Shown here: piece by piece, positions 11,556 to 36,205 of the stretch
Position numbering within the stretch: the first letter of the stretch is position 1
Layout of the letters: every line of letters begins with the position of its first letter
Assembly: GCF_014695715.1 (NCBI RefSeq)
Contig: NZ_JACJOT010000013.1
Coordinates: forward strand, 620,001-684,000
Source of the DNA: Microcoleus sp. FACHB-68
GTDB lineage: Bacteria > Cyanobacteriota > Cyanobacteriia > Cyanobacteriales > Oscillatoriaceae
DNA: 64,000 nucleotides
Reading direction: 5' to 3'
The notes under the pieces: generated by a model
Databases searched by the model: none
What the model saw: the letters and a program-made list of their open reading frames with translations, nothing else
Told to the model about the DNA's origin: nothing
Program-made: the position numbers and the translations under genes

Positions 11556-12977
11556 TTAGCAATCGTAATAGAGAGCGAACTCGTAAGGGTGAGGGCGCAG
11601 ACGCATCGGGTTGACTTCGTTGTCGAGTTTGTACTCGATCCAGGTATTGATGAAGTCTTCGGTGAACACGCCGGTGCTCGTCAAGAATTCGTGATCGGCT
11701 TCGAGTGCTTTGAGTGCGTCCAACAGAGATCCAGGCGTTGAAGGAACCTTGGCCAGTTCTTCAGGAGTGAGGTCATAGATGTCCACATCCAGGGAGTCAC
11801 CGGGGTCGATCTGGTTCTTAATGCCATCAATACCGGCACACAGCATGGCTGCAAACGCCAAGTAGGGGTTGCAGGTGGCATCCGGACAACGGAACTCTAA
11901 ACGCTTGGCTTTGGGGTTCATCCCAGACAGCGGAATGCGGATTGAGGCAGAACGGTTGCCTTGAGAGTAAGCCAAGTTAACCGGCGCTTCAAAACCAGGC
12001 ACCAAACGCTTGTAAGAGTTGGTGGTGGGGTTGGTGAGTGCCAGCAGTGCCGGTGCGTGCTTCAGCAAGCCACCGATATAATGCAAAGCAGTTTGGCTCA
12101 GGTTGGCATAACCGTCGCCCCAGAATAGGGGTTGGCCGTCTTTCCAAATAGACTGGTGGGTGTGCATCCCGGAACCGTTGTCGTTAAACAGCGGCTTCGG
12201 CATGAAAGTGACGCTTTTGCCATATTTCTTGGCAACGTTTTTGATGACGTATTTGTAAGTCATCAAATAGTCAGCGGCTTTCACCAAGGTGTCAAAGCGG
12301 AAACCCAGTTCGTTTTGTCCGCCGGTGGCGACTTCGTGGTGGTGTTTTTCAATGGGAACGCCACACTCTGCCATTGTCAGCAGCATTTCGGTGCGGATGT
12401 CTTGCAGCGTATCTGTCGGCGCGACTGGGAAGTAACCTTCTTTGTAGCGAGGTTTGTAACCGAGGTTGCCGCCGGCTTCTTCTTTACCAGAATTCCAGCG
12501 CCCTTCTATGCTATCGACGTAGTAGTACCCTGTGTTCTCGGTTTGGTCGAAACGGACATCTTCAAACACGAAAAACTCGGCTTCTGGGCCAATGAAGGCG
12601 GTATCGCCGATGCCGGTGGAAATCAGGTAATCGACGGCTTTCTGAGCGATCGTGCGCGGATCGCGGTTGTACCACTCACCTGTGCGCGGTTCTTTAATGC
12701 TACAGATCATGCTTAGAGTCTTCTCTTTCATGAATGGGTCGATCCAAGCCGTGGTTGGATCGGGCACCATTGCCATGTCTGATTCGTTGATTGCTTTCCA
12801 ACCCCGAATGCTGGAACCGTCGAAGGGAACACCTTCGTCGAAGGCACTCTCGTCAATCAAATCGCGGTAGAAAGAGCAGTGCTGCCAGATACCTGGCGTA
12901 TCAATAAATTTTAGATCGATGATCTTGATGTCTTGCTCTTGGATCAGATTCAAGACTTCTTGAGGGGTCTGGGGCAT
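11556..12977 (-). CDS. glnA: Type I glutamine synthetase
   Basis: Condenses glutamate and ammonium with ATP, the entry point of the GS/GOGAT cycle. The 473-residue length and motifs are those of dodecameric [12 protein letters not shown] near the N-terminus, the ATP-binding [16 protein letters not shown] region, NRSASIRIP, and the C-terminal region ending YYDC. Cyanobacterial GSI is controlled transcriptionally by NtcA and post-translationally by small inactivating factors; no such inactivating-factor gene is seen here. The promoter (see 13035-13077) has a canonical NtcA box, and a clean terminator follows the gene. Confidence 0.98.
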
Positions 12978-13034
12978 GAACGACTCCTTGTTTCCTGGGT
13001 AGCTAAGGTTTTGCCACTCTGTTGAATCTGAATC

Positions 13035-13077
13035 ATCCTAGAGATTAGGGCTGGCTGTATATTGTATCGAAGGATAC
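13035..13077 (-). promoter_or_regulatory. NtcA-activated glnA promoter (GTA-N8-TAC, N23, -10)
   Basis: The box GTATCGAAGGATAC at 13064-13077 fits GTA-N8-TAC. Reading leftward, exactly 23 bases separate it from a -10 box TAGGAT (13040-13035), which fits TA-N3-T. This is the classic NtcA class II architecture and predicts transcription from about 13028, giving a leader of about 50 bases to glnA. Confidence 0.88.
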
Positions 13078-31585: not shown

Positions 31586-32512
31586 TTACAACTCTCTAGG
31601 TTTCCTCTGTTGAAATGCTTCAATTAATTGGTGAGCTGAATAAGATATTGAAAGCTTATTATAAAGCCGATGTTTCTGGCTGAATGTAGAAAAGAAAATA
31701 TTGTCAATTCCAGAATTTGGTTTTTCTTGATTGCCTAAAACTAAAAATCCAGTATCCTTTAACCCAAAATGAAGGCGATATAAAACTCGATTTTGTCCCC
31801 TGATGTTAAAATATATCAACGTATTGCGACACACCAATAAGTCCACTTTAGAAATAGGAGCATCGTCAAGCAGGCTCCTCTGGGCGAAGATGATTGGCTG
31901 CCGTAATTCCTTGCGAAAGATATAGTTTTGATCGATTTTTTCAAAGTATCGTTCTCGGAAAGCCGGGGGAACTCCCATAATTTTATTTTTACAGTATCTG
32001 CCCTGACGAGCAAGCTCGATCGCTTCTGGATCGATATCCGTTCCATAAATCCGAACTTGCTGGTTAAATTGTTCGACTCCCAAGGCTTCAATTAGTAAAA
32101 TTGCTAGGGTATAAACTTCTTCTCCAGATGCACACCCAGCACTCCAAACCTTAATTAAATCATCAGATTTTTTATTATCAAGAATCTGCGGAATAACTTG
32201 GGTAGCAATATAATCCCAAGTCTCTGCATCTCTGAAAAAATGCGTGTAATTAACGGGTAAGAACTCAAACAGAGCTTTTGGCTCTTCTGGATACGCTTTT
32301 ATGTATTCGATATAATCCTTATAGCTTGATATCCCAACAAATTTCATTCGCTGCCCGACTCGTCGCATCAAGCTATGGCGTTTGTAATCCGTGAAGTTAA
32401 CCCCGTAGTTTTTCCAAAGGTAGCTCAGAAAAGCTTCAAAAGACTCTCTTTCTTCAACAGATATAAAATCGTGATTTTTTGTTGAATTTTCAACAGCATT
32501 ATTTGAAAGCAT
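31586..32512 (-). CDS. cheR: CheR-type protein-glutamate methyltransferase
   Basis: A 308-residue CheR: N-terminal helical domain with the family segment GVNFTDYKRHSLMRRVGQRM, then a SAM-binding domain with VWSAGCASGEEVYTLA and LLVCRNTLIYFN. It would methylate receptor glutamates using S-adenosylmethionine. No chemoreceptor, CheB or CheA gene lies within this window, so its partner is elsewhere. I start at ATG 32512; the TTG at 32542 adds ten residues with no ribosome binding site. The candidate NtcA-type small RNA lies upstream on the same strand but ends at a terminator before this gene. Confidence 0.92.
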   Translation of the reverse strand: MLSNNAVENSTKNHDFISVEERESFEAFLSYLWKNYGVNFTDYKRHSLMRRVGQRMKFVGISSYKDYIEYIKAYPEEPKALFEFLPVNYTHFFRDAETWDYIATQVIPQILDNKKSDDLIKVWSAGCASGEEVYTLAILLIEALGVEQFNQQVRIYGTDIDPEAIELARQGRYCKNKIMGVPPAFRERYFEKIDQNYIFRKELRQPIIFAQRSLLDDAPISKVDLLVCRNTLIYFNIRGQNRVLYRLHFGLKDTGFLVLGNQEKPNSGIDNIFFSTFSQKHRLYNKLSISYSAHQLIEAFQQRKPREL

Positions 32513-32651
32513 GGTGATGAATTGCAACCAATGAATGTTCAAAAAATAAATTTTATGTAGCCAAACTAATCATTCAATCAACTAGACAAGATGTGCTGGC
32601 AAAATACTCTAATAAATATTTTTTTATTCTCTAGATGAGGTTTATTAAAAT

Positions 32652-32862
32652 TAAAAAAAAGTTTCGGATTTTTTAGAAAAAATCCGAAACTAAAAATAAT
32701 TATTTAACATTTGACCACAAATGTATGAAAAGTTGAAACTTATGCTTTTATAAACGGGTAAGATCTCCTTGATATCGTGCAGCAAACTAAATATTGAAAA
32801 ATTGTAGGGTTGAGTAATTGTACCGACCGCGAACAATAGCTCTAAAACCTGATTGTTAATCT
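32652..32862 (-). ncRNA. Candidate NtcA-type small RNA
   Basis: A promoter with GTA-N8-TAC, N23 and TATTCT (32869-32911) predicts a start near 32862 reading leftward, and a 14-bp perfect hairpin with eight T residues ends the transcript near 32653. The roughly 210-base interval contains no ATG-started reading frame of meaningful length. A TTG-started frame of about 48 codons crosses it, so a small protein cannot be excluded. Not similar to any RNA I recognise. Confidence 0.45.
32653..32690 (-). terminator. Strong rho-independent terminator
   Basis: Perfect 14-bp stem, arms 32661-32674 and 32677-32690, followed on the minus strand by eight T residues (32660-32653). It lies 140 bases upstream of cheR and would stop transcripts entering from the right. 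Confidence 0.88.
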
Positions 32863-32868
32863 TCCTTA

Positions 32869-32911
32869 AGAATAATTTTAACCGGCCTCAAGTTTCTGTA
32901 CGGTTCCGTAC
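32869..32911 (-). promoter_or_regulatory. NtcA-type promoter (GTA-N8-TAC, N23, TATTCT)
   Basis: The 14-base palindrome GTACGGTTCCGTAC at 32898-32911 fits GTA-N8-TAC; 23 bases to the left lies TATTCT (32874-32869) on the minus strand. Spacing equals that of the glnA promoter in this window. The palindrome differs by one base (on the matching strand) from the box at 35863. Confidence 0.75.
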
Positions 32912-32975
32912 TTAAAATGTATTGATTTCTCAGCACCGGCAGCTCGCTGAAAGCAGGACATTAAATCGTGAAAAG

Positions 32976-33389
32976 TTAGCGAGCGCAACAGAGCCGGCAC
33001 AGAAGATTCATTAACTGCTGCCCATCTTCCAGGTAAGTCACATACTCACGTTCGCCAATCTGAATATCTTGGCCTTCCAGATCCGTCCCGTAGTGCTCAG
33101 CGATAATCACAATCGGCGTATCTTTAGGAATATCCGTGCTTTGACAGATATACAGACCTAAATTTACGCACTCCTCAATCGACAGATCCATCTGATTGAT
33201 CAAAAGTAGGTCAGGAGGTTCGCTTCTGCCACGAATACGGTCGATCGCGTCTTGTGCATCTAGCACCACAATCGTACGGTAGCCTTTGCTGATGAGATTA
33301 TGCTTTAGCAGTGGGCGTGTCTCGTCATCCGGCTCAAGCACCAGAATGGTTGGCGGTGCACTTCGTTCCTCTTTCATGAGGTTAGACAT
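32976..33389 (-). CDS. Degenerate receiver-domain protein (pseudo-receiver)
   Basis: A 137-residue CheY-like fold starting TILVLEPDDETRPLL. The expected phospho-acceptor Asp appears as Asn in LLLINQMDLS and the usual KP motif is missing (EYVTYLEDG), so ordinary phosphorylation is unlikely. It starts two bases after the stop of the Crp-type gene and is surely co-transcribed with it, so it may act as a partner or ligand sensor for that regulator. The C-terminus ends with cysteines (LLCRLCCAR), an unusual feature. Confidence 0.75.
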   Translation of the reverse strand: MSNLMKEERSAPPTILVLEPDDETRPLLKHNLISKGYRTIVVLDAQDAIDRIRGRSEPPDLLLINQMDLSIEECVNLGLYICQSTDIPKDTPIVIIAEHYGTDLEGQDIQIGEREYVTYLEDGQQLMNLLCRLCCAR

Positions 33390-33391
33390 TT

Positions 33392-34090
33392 TTATTTTAG
33401 TCCTAGCAAGCGATCATATTCGTCCTTGACTGTCTCGAAACACTCACAGCAGGCTGCTTCTAGTCCCTGTTGGTCGATAATCTGGACGCGCCCCCGGCTG
33501 TAGTCGATCAGACGCTTTTCTTGGAACTTTTGGGCGGCTTGGGTGACACCGGCACGGCGCACGCCCAGCATATGCCCAAGGAACTCCTGCGTCAGCAACA
33601 GCTTGTCCGATTCCATTCGGGTTTGGGATTCTAGCAGCCAACGTCCAAAGCGTTGTTCCAAAAGGTGAAGTCGGTTGCAGGCGGTTGTTTGCGATATCTG
33701 CGCGATTAGCGCTTGGGTATAACGCAGCATTAAATCCCGCACTTCCTTATTGTGATCAAACTCATCCAGCAGCACTGCCGCATCCATCTTCATCGCGCTG
33801 CCAGCAATCTGTACGATATATTCCGTCTGCGTGGTTTCCCTGCCCCCCATAAAGGCGTTGACACCCAGCATTTCTCGATTGCCAATTACACCCGTCTCAG
33901 CGGTAGAACCGTCTTTCATGGTGATGGTGATGGAAATCAGGCAATCAAGGGGAAAATAGACATCGCGGATAATCTCGCCTGGAAGGTGGAGAATTTTGCC
34001 TCGCTCTAGGGAGACTAGCTTTAAATGGGGAGCGAATTTCTCGGATACTTCACGAGGCAAGGCAGTAAGCAGCCGGTTGTGATGACTCAT
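33392..34090 (-). CDS. Crp/Fnr-family transcriptional regulator
   Basis: A 232-residue regulator: N-terminal cyclic-nucleotide-binding-type barrel (about 15-130, with YFPLDCLISI and GVIGNREMLGVNAFMGG), a long dimer helix, and a C-terminal winged helix with LLTQEFLGHMLGVRRAGVTQ. The helix VRRAGVTQAAQKF does not match NtcA. The effector is unknown; the cAMP-binding RxS signature is not seen, and ligand type cannot be deduced. Two Cys pairs near the C-terminus (AACCECFE) could bind metal. Operon with the degenerate receiver downstream. Confidence 0.9.
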   Translation of the reverse strand: MSHHNRLLTALPREVSEKFAPHLKLVSLERGKILHLPGEIIRDVYFPLDCLISITITMKDGSTAETGVIGNREMLGVNAFMGGRETTQTEYIVQIAGSAMKMDAAVLLDEFDHNKEVRDLMLRYTQALIAQISQTTACNRLHLLEQRFGRWLLESQTRMESDKLLLTQEFLGHMLGVRRAGVTQAAQKFQEKRLIDYSRGRVQIIDQQGLEAACCECFETVKDEYDRLLGLK

Positions 34091-34391
34091 AAGGATATTT
34101 TTAAACGGCTAGATGAAAACATCCTTTTAGAGCCTTTCTAAAAAAGAAGCAACATCTCGCAGACAAATACAGCGTTTTTCCTGCCGGTGGAATCCCGGCA
34201 TTGTTGTAGGGGCGGATTGAGTAATTATCTCAGCTTCCCAAGGAATAAACTATCTATCAAAGGGTGCCTCTACAAATGCTGTGCGGCAGTTTGCAAACCA
34301 ATATGGGAGATTGATTCGCCCGCCTTTCACGATTGCAAAAAGGGCGAATAGAAGATTTGCAAAAATTAGAGGCTCCCATTTCTTCGCGGTT
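34091..34391. other. Intergenic between two Crp-family genes
   Basis: About 300 bases between the stop of the PAS/Crp gene and the start of the Crp/Fnr gene, both reading leftward. It should contain the Crp/Fnr promoter; no GTA-N8-TAC box is evident to me here. Confidence 0.4.
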
Positions 34392-35552
34392 TTATCGTTT
34401 CAAAATTAAGTGATGCTGGGAGTCTAGGCTCAGTTTCTTTTGCTGCTGAAGTTTGCTCAGTAACCGGGTGACGGTGACTCTAGTTGTGCAGCAGGCAGTG
34501 GCTAACTCTTCATGGGTGAGACGAACGCTTAGCCGAGTGCCATTTGCTACAGGTTCCCCAACTTCTTGTTTTAACAGCTGTAATAAGCTGTACAGGCGAT
34601 CTGCAACTCGTGTTTGTCCGTAAACCGTTAGCAGCAATTCAGTTTGTTTGAGCCGGCTGCTAATTTGTGGCAAAAGGCGCTGTCTGAGTGTAGGAGAAGA
34701 CTCAAAGTCAGCCAAGGGAATGCTGCACAGCTCAGTATCGCTGAGGGCAGTTGCTTCATAAAGTGGCAAGGCAGTCAAGCTAGGGCCAAAAGGAGCCTCA
34801 GCACCCGCTAAGCCAACCAAAACTTCTTGACCGTTATCTGAAAATGTGGTTAATTTCACCAATCCTGAACGCACCTGCCAAATGATCTGAGGGTTGAGGG
34901 GAATGGCTTCTCCTTTGTAATAAACCTGCACAGAATAGTTCAGCTCGGCATTACTGTTAGATGCTTCCAAGGTTTCCCCTCGGCTGTCATCTTTGTGCCG
35001 GCACAGCAACCAGCGCAGAGTCAGGGGTTCGTCAATTGCGGGCCGGCTGCTCTCAACGACAGCGTTGACTTTAAAAGCAATATCGTGACGTGGCTGCAAA
35101 TTTAGCTGGCACTGCTGTTTCCAGGGACTTTGCTGAAACTGCTGCAACTGAGTTTGAAATTGTTTGCGCGTTTCGGGCGCGATAAAAGCGGTGAGAGACT
35201 GACCGATCACTAGGGTTTGAGGAAGGTTGAGCAATTCCGCAGCCGCCCGATTAGTTTCCTGAATGATTCCCGTTGCATCGGTTAGCAGGCAAGGATCGGG
35301 GATAAACTCTAACAATTCTTGATATCGCTGGCGTTCGGTTTTTACCGTCTGGTCAGCTAATAATAACTGTTCATTCTGTTGGTACAGCATTTTGGCTGCC
35401 AGCTGAAGCCGTTCAGAGACAATGCCAAGTTCTTTTAGGGCAGAAGGCAGGAGTGCCGGCGGTAGTGCAGCAGAGGTATTAAGTCCTTGATACAGGTGTG
35501 CTAAGCGATCAGAGATCACTTTAACCTGTTGTGTAAAGACCGTTGTGTTCAT
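34392..35552 (-). CDS. PAS-containing Crp-family regulator with NtcA-like recognition helix
   Basis: A 386-residue regulator. Order: helical coiled N-terminus (about 1-80), a PAS domain (about 80-190, YQELLEFIPDPCLLTDATGII), a cyclic-nucleotide-binding-like barrel (about 210-320) and a C-terminal helix-turn-helix reading ATACCTTRVTVTRLLSKLQ. The stretch TRVTVTRLL equals that of NtcA as I know it, so GTA-N8-TAC binding is predicted. Such a box sits in its own promoter at 35863, suggesting autoregulation or NtcA control. Start ATG 35552 overlaps the stop of a 67-codon ORF (ATGA). The longer frame to 35642 is less likely. The sensed signal is unknown. Confidence 0.9.
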   Translation of the reverse strand: MNTTVFTQQVKVISDRLAHLYQGLNTSAALPPALLPSALKELGIVSERLQLAAKMLYQQNEQLLLADQTVKTERQRYQELLEFIPDPCLLTDATGIIQETNRAAAELLNLPQTLVIGQSLTAFIAPETRKQFQTQLQQFQQSPWKQQCQLNLQPRHDIAFKVNAVVESSRPAIDEPLTLRWLLCRHKDDSRGETLEASNSNAELNYSVQVYYKGEAIPLNPQIIWQVRSGLVKLTTFSDNGQEVLVGLAGAEAPFGPSLTALPLYEATALSDTELCSIPLADFESSPTLRQRLLPQISSRLKQTELLLTVYGQTRVADRLYSLLQLLKQEVGEPVANGTRLSVRLTHEELATACCTTRVTVTRLLSKLQQQKKLSLDSQHHLILKR

Positions 35553-35752
35553 GTTGTAAGCACCCCTTGAAGGTATGGACTTTGCTGAGCGACGGTTGCG
35601 ATTAACATATCCATGTCGGAGAATTTTGCTCGATGCCGGCAAACGTCAGCAGACAGAACGATGCGCTTGTCGTCGTCAGTCTGTGCCGGTAAAGTAATGG
35701 CTGGGATTATGAGTAGTTGTTGCGCGTTCTCAAAAGTTTTCACCCGACTCAT
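35549..35752 (-). CDS. Small unknown protein coupled to the PAS/Crp regulator
   Basis: A 67-codon frame starting MSRVKTFENAQQLL and ending in TGA that overlaps the ATG of the PAS/Crp gene by the tetranucleotide ATGA, an arrangement typical of translational coupling. It lies about 75 bases downstream of the predicted start of the 35863 promoter, so it would be the first cistron. The protein is mixed alpha/beta in appearance with a DDDKRIV and SDMDML segment; I recognise no family. No strong ribosome binding site is visible. It could also be a leader peptide. Confidence 0.45.
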   Translation of the reverse strand: MSRVKTFENAQQLLIIPAITLPAQTDDDKRIVLSADVCRHRAKFSDMDMLIATVAQQSPYLQGVLTT

Positions 35753-35833
35753 CAGTGAGTAGTTATCTTGATCAGGAATATCTTTTAATGCAAAAGCATT
35801 GCTAAATTAAGCTAGACTGCTCAGCTAAAATTT

Positions 35834-35876
35834 AGTATAATGTTTGCCGGCATTCGTAGTCAGTACGAAACCGTAC
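35834..35876 (-). promoter_or_regulatory. NtcA-type promoter of the PAS/Crp gene
   Basis: GTACGAAACCGTAC at 35863-35876 fits GTA-N8-TAC; 23 bases to the left on the minus strand is TATACT (35839-35834). This is the class II activator layout, predicting a start near 35827. The box on the matching strand differs from the one at 32898 by a single base. Confidence 0.78.
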
Positions 35877-36205
35877 TTACCTGCGATGAATTCAGGCAAA
35901 TCTAATTCAGCCAAGGATTAACCCGTCAAGTTGAGCTGAATGTTGACTGTGGCGTAAAATTTTTCAGCCCTATTTAATTAATAGTACGTCCAAAGTATTG
36001 CAGTGTGTCGCCCTGCACAATTAGGACTTTTAATAAATTATTAATCAAATTACTCTATCAAACAATCCTACCTTTGTTAAAAACTGAATCTATCTACAGA
36101 TATATGGATCAGACGAGCTGTTGTGCAAAGCTGGCAGACAAGCGCTGAATGATTGCTACAGACAGTAGCGCTTGGCTCGAATCGCACATTACGAAGGCAA
36201 GTAAA
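35877..36205. other. Intergenic upstream of the DUF389 gene
   Basis: About 330 bases between the PAS/Crp promoter and the rightward DUF389 gene. It should carry the DUF389 promoter. No second GTA-N8-TAC box is seen. Confidence 0.4.

Follow-up and report, generated by a model that had tools for sequence, protein, structure and literature searches.

The PAS-containing Crp-family gene of the window (the whole stretch of 64,000 nucleotides that was analyzed) is probably a passenger in a class II operon autoregulated by a second Crp-family protein, Crp2, and the palindrome GTACG-N4-CGTAC in front of the operon is probably the Crp2 operator. This reading, drawn from sequence comparison, is better supported than the nitrogen-control story that it replaces, in which a sequence-only reading had taken the gene for a PAS-equipped NtcA paralog behind an NtcA-type promoter. 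Comparison across loci shows that the box is conserved, that it is linked to Crp2 genes in two phyla and that a TAN3T element follows it at a preferred spacing. The features concerned are listed in table 1.

Table 1. Features of the window discussed in the text, in descending order of position
Feature	Positions	Strand	Basis or remark
Operator box 1, GTACGGTTTCGTAC (GTACG-N4-CGTAC)	35863..35876	(-)	9/10 or 10/10 in 12/12 distinct clade loci
-10 element TATACT, 23 bases after box 1	35834..35839	(-)	
Decayed remnant of the RR1 receiver gene, in the leader	35555..35779	(-)	tblastn; N-terminal half missing
PAS-Crp regulator, 386 aa, PtrA-like C-terminal part	34392..35552	(-)	ORF, domain and family models, tree, ortholog alignment
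Codons of TRVTVTRLL, residues 357-365 of PAS-Crp	34458..34484	(-)	Stretch common to NtcA and several PtrA-like proteins
Crp2, 232-aa Crp-family regulator, proposed box reader	33392..34090	(-)	RRAGVT recognition stretch
RR2, 137-aa receiver-like protein	32976..33389	(-)	Response_reg 17.9 bits against a cut-off of 30.2 (weak)
Operator box 2, GTACGGAACCGTAC	32898..32911	(-)	3/3 genus genomes, varying center
-10 element TATTCT, 23 bases after box 2	32869..32874	(-)	
Strong hairpin of terminator type, after box 2 and before the CheR-type gene	32660..32691	(-)	
CheR-type methyltransferase gene downstream of box 2	31586..32542	(-)	
NtcA-type box GTATCCTTCGATAC before glnA, in-window comparison	13064..13077	(-)	GTATC-N4-GATAC

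A PAS-Fused Relative of PtrA

The start of PAS-Crp was placed at the ATG at 35552, which is the same Met as in the aligned orthologs; a longer frame from a TTG at 35642 is unsupported. The gene does encode a PAS-equipped Crp protein, as had been proposed: Pfam recognizes a PAS domain (1.5e-11, residues 76-141 matched) and HTH_Crp_2 (1.5e-10), with cNMP_binding marginally below its cut-off (27.4 vs 27.5 bits), and the layout consists of an N-terminal stretch, the PAS domain, a shortened cNMP-like part and a Crp-type HTH. Matches to PAS-Crp at E ≤ 1e-70 are common (113 of the 388 genomes of the order; rows of 37-100% identity, a few of them partial) and are approximately full length, with the N-terminal stretch, PAS and Crp part co-linear. 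The subgroup to which the window's protein belongs (above 60% identity) is rare, being present in 7 of the 388 genomes, its own included. The same genome encodes a second PAS-Crp (L003, G000:C18), 48% identical, which carries TRVTITRLL and has no box in the 700 bp upstream. An AlphaFold2 model built from nine sequences was too poor for a fold search (mean pLDDT 43.6). A weak literature search, covering titles and abstract starts of open-licence PMC papers, found among the papers listed no PAS-fused cyanobacterial Crp protein and no Crp operator of the form GTACG-N4-CGTAC.

On the evidence of family models, phylogeny and residues, PAS-Crp is related to the phosphate regulator PtrA, with a PAS domain fused on, and is not a second NtcA. 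The best NCBIfam match of its Crp part is the PtrA model NF053664, at 177.8 bits and under the cut-off of 300, which no protein of the 30 related genomes exceeded. The NtcA model TIGR03697 gives 66.8 bits (cut-off 244.95), and the genome's own NtcA, located elsewhere on another contig (G000:C9), scores 391.4 bits with it. All 26 PAS-Crp rows cluster together (support 95/95) in a tree built from 49 Crp proteins, with PtrA-like proteins as their sister group, and the ten rows of the window's clade share a single branch (100/100). Grouping the window's clade with the NtcA clade was rejected (p-AU 0.0076), as was grouping all PAS-Crp rows with NtcA (p-AU 0.0051), in this 49-row tree with four NtcA rows and some long branches. 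PtrAlike_L043 was left out of the tree (wrong reading frame), and the NtcA rows L202-L204 were assigned by reading the match listing and not by the model cut-off. In the alignment, the column that we take to be Arg88 of NtcA holds a Pro in PAS-Crp, beside a 5-residue gap, and the Arg129 and Glu134 columns are retained. Arg88 holds 2-oxoglutarate in NtcA (PMC12937710).

A true NtcA paralog that has lost 2-oxoglutarate sensing would account for the identical recognition stretch, and the best PDB matches of PAS-Crp are indeed NtcA structures (6e-19), for which the reason may simply be that no PtrA structure exists. However, the PtrA model outscores the NtcA model, both joint clades are rejected (long branches being present in the tree), and Arg88 and the 5-residue loop are missing; we thus hold such a paralog to be extremely improbable. 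The earlier assignment to NtcA fails on model cut-off, tree and 2-oxoglutarate residue alike.

The stretch TRVTVTRLL, on which that assignment was built, is present in the HTH and equals the recognition stretch of NtcA in the window's protein. Its distribution indicates that this identity is a family resemblance and is not diagnostic. Exact copies occur in 6 of the 15 PtrA-like proteins without PAS (L175, L180, L181, L193, L197, and L198), and a further Crp of the window's genome (L008) has TRVTVTRLM. Among the 26 PAS-Crp rows, TRVTVTRLL is exact in 3 and replaced by TRVTITRLL in 11; within the window's clade of ten, it is exact in 3 and reads TRVTITQLL in 2. The variants seen in orthologs (TRVTITRLL, TRVTITQLL, TRVTITRLF, and TRVTVTRTL) show that even the second Arg varies. 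The four NtcA rows of the comparison were chosen by the motif itself and are therefore uninformative on its constancy in NtcA. That the stretch might be generic to Crp proteins of many specificities, an objection that the sequence-only reading had raised against itself, largely holds within the cyanobacterial NtcA/PtrA-like set that the survey covered.

A Conserved Palindrome with Class II Promoter Geometry

Upstream of PAS-Crp, the earlier description had combined box letters from the plus strand with -10 letters from the minus strand. Read on the minus strand throughout, the arrangement is confirmed as GTACGGTTTCGTAC, exactly 23 bases and TATACT. The window contains 10 copies of GTA-N8-TAC alone, compared with 5.1 in shuffles (10 being reached in 2 of 100), and 3 copies of its combination with N22/23 and TAN3T, compared with a shuffle mean of 0.3 (at least two in 5 of 200). 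The extended palindrome GTACG-N4-CGTAC occurs twice, compared with a mean of 0.025 (twice in none of 200 shuffles). It is this extended form, beyond GTA-N8-TAC, that orthologous loci retain, with 9 or 10 of the 10 positions in all 12 distinct loci, the window included. Three loci that duplicate the upstream letters of others (L050, L052, and L033, duplicating L025, L027, and L024) are part of the upstream scan (n=15) and are excluded from these 12.

Over 48 distinct sites, the logo reads TT-n-GTACG-n-TA-n-CGTAC-n-GA. TAN3T follows at 22 bases in 18 of these sites and at 23 in 11, with 0-4 sites at any other spacing up to 35. Taking 21-23 bases together, 32 of the 48 have the element, so that the proposed class II geometry holds and is kept by relatives. 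An Rfam search of 32500-36200 returned no match up to E 1. Within the window, a canonical NtcA-type promoter (GTATCCTTCGATAC, N23, and TAGGAT) is found in the glnA region (11556-13077, minus strand), the gene itself (11556-12977, minus strand) being identified by NCBIfam TIGR00653 at 692 bits over the cut-off.

The second box of the window is equally real, with N23 and TATTCT. In three genomes of the genus its arms are unchanged and its center varies (GGAACC, GGTTCC, and GTTTTC). About 110 bases after it are well conserved between the window and L024, after which conservation fades, and the hairpin is not conserved in L024. Because this strong terminator (32691-32660) precedes the CheR-type gene, transcription from box 2 may yield a short RNA some 200 bases long.

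The Box Is Linked to Crp2 Genes in Two Phyla

We scanned the 700 bp before genes, counting boxes with at least 9 of 10 positions and using dinucleotide shuffles as the null. The Crp2 set comprised 90 cyanobacterial homologs (41-100% identity), 89 of which were scanned, L150 having been dropped for too little upstream sequence. A box precedes 29 of the 89, in 22 cases a perfect one, compared with 0.45 and 0.000 in shuffles; the homologs are related and these counts are therefore not independent. The other 60 of the 89 have no such box within 700 bp. Window-clade PAS-Crp stands in front of Crp2 at 6 of the 90 loci, and the box is therefore further upstream there. Over the same 700 bp, no box was present before any of 27 PAS-Crp paralogs or any of eight PtrA-like genes without PAS. 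Conversely, the box is kept without PAS-Crp in the available stretch of L077 and of the Kovacikia plasmid L221, both of which have exactly GTACGAAACCGTAC, and of L081 (9/10). Box-to-gene distances in the Crp2 set range from 84 to 796 bases, and the centers vary.

At the scale of whole genomes, 19 genomes with Crp2 matches contain 31 perfect boxes compared with 17 copies of a control pattern, the box occurring in 17 of the 19, and 19 genomes without Crp2 matches (E ≤ 1e-35) contain 14 compared with 16, the box occurring in 8 of the 19; both sets were hand-picked from the Crp2 match listing. Of the four perfect sites in the window's genome (G000), two Crp2 modules account for three, and the remaining one (C8:523415) is within a 184-codon open frame. 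A genome-wide regulon, sought with one mismatch allowed, was rejected: the control was commoner in G000 (30 vs 55), G003 (30 vs 55) and G004 (32 vs 51), and a regulon would therefore be small. Extra boxes adjoining Crp2 genes were observed in L084 (2690-2703), L089 (2357-2370) and L209 (10-23, 175-188, and 3382-3395), where they precede receiver, sensor kinase or small genes, a possible local regulon. In L083, a perfect box (688-701) lies 100 bases before a Crp gene of another type, whose product is 35% like PAS-Crp and to which Crp2 is convergent.

Crp2 matches were also found in 353 plasmid records (E ≤ 1e-10), which among the matches listed are mostly annotated, if at all, just as "Crp/Fnr family transcriptional regulator." From these records, human-source ones being left out, we took 18 plasmid loci, 17 of them non-cyanobacterial. 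A box with at least 9 of 10 positions lies upstream of 6 of these 17 Crp2 homologs, 2 of the boxes being perfect (shuffles, 0.155 and 0.010), and all six loci are from Pseudomonadota. The perfect boxes are those of Azospirillum lipoferum (GTACGGTTCCGTAC) and of Halomonas, with TATACT 21 bases on; the other four are 9/10. One locus each of Granulicella (Acidobacteriota) and Gemmatirosa (Gemmatimonadota) had no box and a different recognition stretch. In 3 of the 17 loci a box was also scored in the downstream flank, more than in shuffles, and such boxes may serve as promoters of the next genes. In Paraburkholderia 22B1P, boxes precede neighboring genes and none lies within 700 bp before Crp2. 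The label of NtcA-type box is not sustained by these results, given a conserved operator GTACG-N4-CGTAC that accompanies Crp2 genes of two phyla, even in modules without PAS-Crp.

A Predicted Crp2 Operon

The module has the order box, RR1 (in some loci), PAS-Crp, Crp2 and RR2, the last being present in most loci whose contig reaches far enough. PAS-Crp and crp2 are separated by 300 bases, and the 600 bases before crp2 give at best a 7/10 box. The RR1 remnant of the window was detected by tblastn against a very small database (E 2e-10 to 4e-15, 42-49% identity); its presence makes the leader long. Longer RR1 genes lie between the box and PAS-Crp in L025, L026, L028, L029, and L031, and RR1 was seen in this place in Scytonema, Chlorogloeopsis, Spirirestis and an uncultured Coleofasciculus. 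Near what we take to be the usual position of the phospho-acceptor Asp, RR2 has an Asn and the RR1 proteins of these five loci a Glu, so that both may be non-phosphorylated partners. For Crp2 itself, NCBIfam contains no family at E ≤ 0.1, the PDB gave a single weak match (3dv8), and no binding site of the family was found in the literature among the matches listed.

From the arrangement of these sites and genes we infer that Crp2 binds the box and acts as an activator and that the genes share a transcript. A Crp2 dimer would bind the palindrome GTACG-N4-CGTAC some 41 bases upstream of the transcription start and, judged by the class II geometry, would most likely activate its own operon. PAS-Crp would be carried along as a member of this operon in the window's clade, and box 2 (32898) would be a second copy of the operator with the same role for the next transcript.

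Two other readers of the box have to be weighed. NtcA, which the window's genome encodes, might itself read the box and place the operon under nitrogen control. The NtcA class II arrangement is described as GTA-N8-TAC about 22-23 bases before TAN3T, a distance at which the GTA-N8-TAC contained in box 1 is found, and NtcA is reported to bind widely, at up to 2,424 sites in the Anabaena genome (PMC3898017). Yet the strongest NtcA ChIP sites prefer T4, C5, A10 and A11 (PMC3898017), with which box 1 (C, G, C, and G) agrees at none of the four positions and the glnA box (T, C, G, and A) at three. Genomes without Crp2 matches show no excess of the box. Moreover, the extended box precedes Crp2 genes of Azospirillum and Halomonas, which to our knowledge lack NtcA; as far as we know NtcA is confined to cyanobacteria, and the box therefore does not appear to need it. 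We regard NtcA as a very unlikely reader.

Alternatively, PAS-Crp might read the box and regulate itself, without being of NtcA descent. Its TRVT-x-T stretch is like that of NtcA, which reads GTA, and since the box is present in all 12 distinct loci of its clade, PAS-Crp could also read it. However, its 27 paralogs lack the box despite similar stretches, the box persists without PAS-Crp in L077, L081, and L221, and two orthologs (L027 and L030) in which the second Arg is changed to Gln keep a 9/10 box, all of which makes autoregulation by PAS-Crp rather unlikely. One may also imagine two readers of GTACG-N4-CGTAC in one operon, Crp2 with its RRxGVT stretch and PAS-Crp, with a PAS input added to an older Crp2 loop, two receiver partners acting without phosphorylation and box 2 driving a small RNA of the same circuit; taken as a whole, this scheme is quite improbable. 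The preferred reading thus remains Crp2 as reader of the box and PAS-Crp as passenger.

If so, a predicted operator with its promoter geometry can be assigned to an orphan Crp/Fnr subfamily of several phyla, on the basis of loci from Cyanobacteriota and Pseudomonadota. GTA-N8-TAC together with TAN3T would be insufficient to call an NtcA promoter, since the frame seems to serve another Crp family as well.

Comparison with Known Systems

PtrA is known as a phosphate-stress regulator of marine Synechococcus (PMC11098088). Its model NF053664 is the best for the Crp part of PAS-Crp, and PtrA-like proteins branch next to PAS-Crp in the tree, whereas PAS-Crp falls below the curated cut-off and has the PAS domain and N-terminal stretch in addition. 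With NtcA (TIGR03697), PAS-Crp shares TRVTVTRLL, the Crp fold and a class II promoter geometry nearby; it differs in its low score (66.8 bits vs a cut-off of 245), the lack of Arg88, its separate position in the tree and a box that is unlike that of NtcA outside GTA...TAC. The 232-aa gene of the window belongs with the uncharacterized Crp/Fnr proteins that have RRxGVT, that is, the Crp2 family. The promoter in front of the module resembles NtcA-dependent class II promoters of the glnA, nirA and urtA type in the palindrome, N22-23 and TAN3T, but its conserved core reads GTACG-N4-CGTAC and accompanies Crp2 genes in both Cyanobacteriota and Pseudomonadota. Judged by their boxes, the NtcA and Crp2 families seem to use a common GTA...TAC frame whose inner letters set them apart, CG standing where NtcA has TC.
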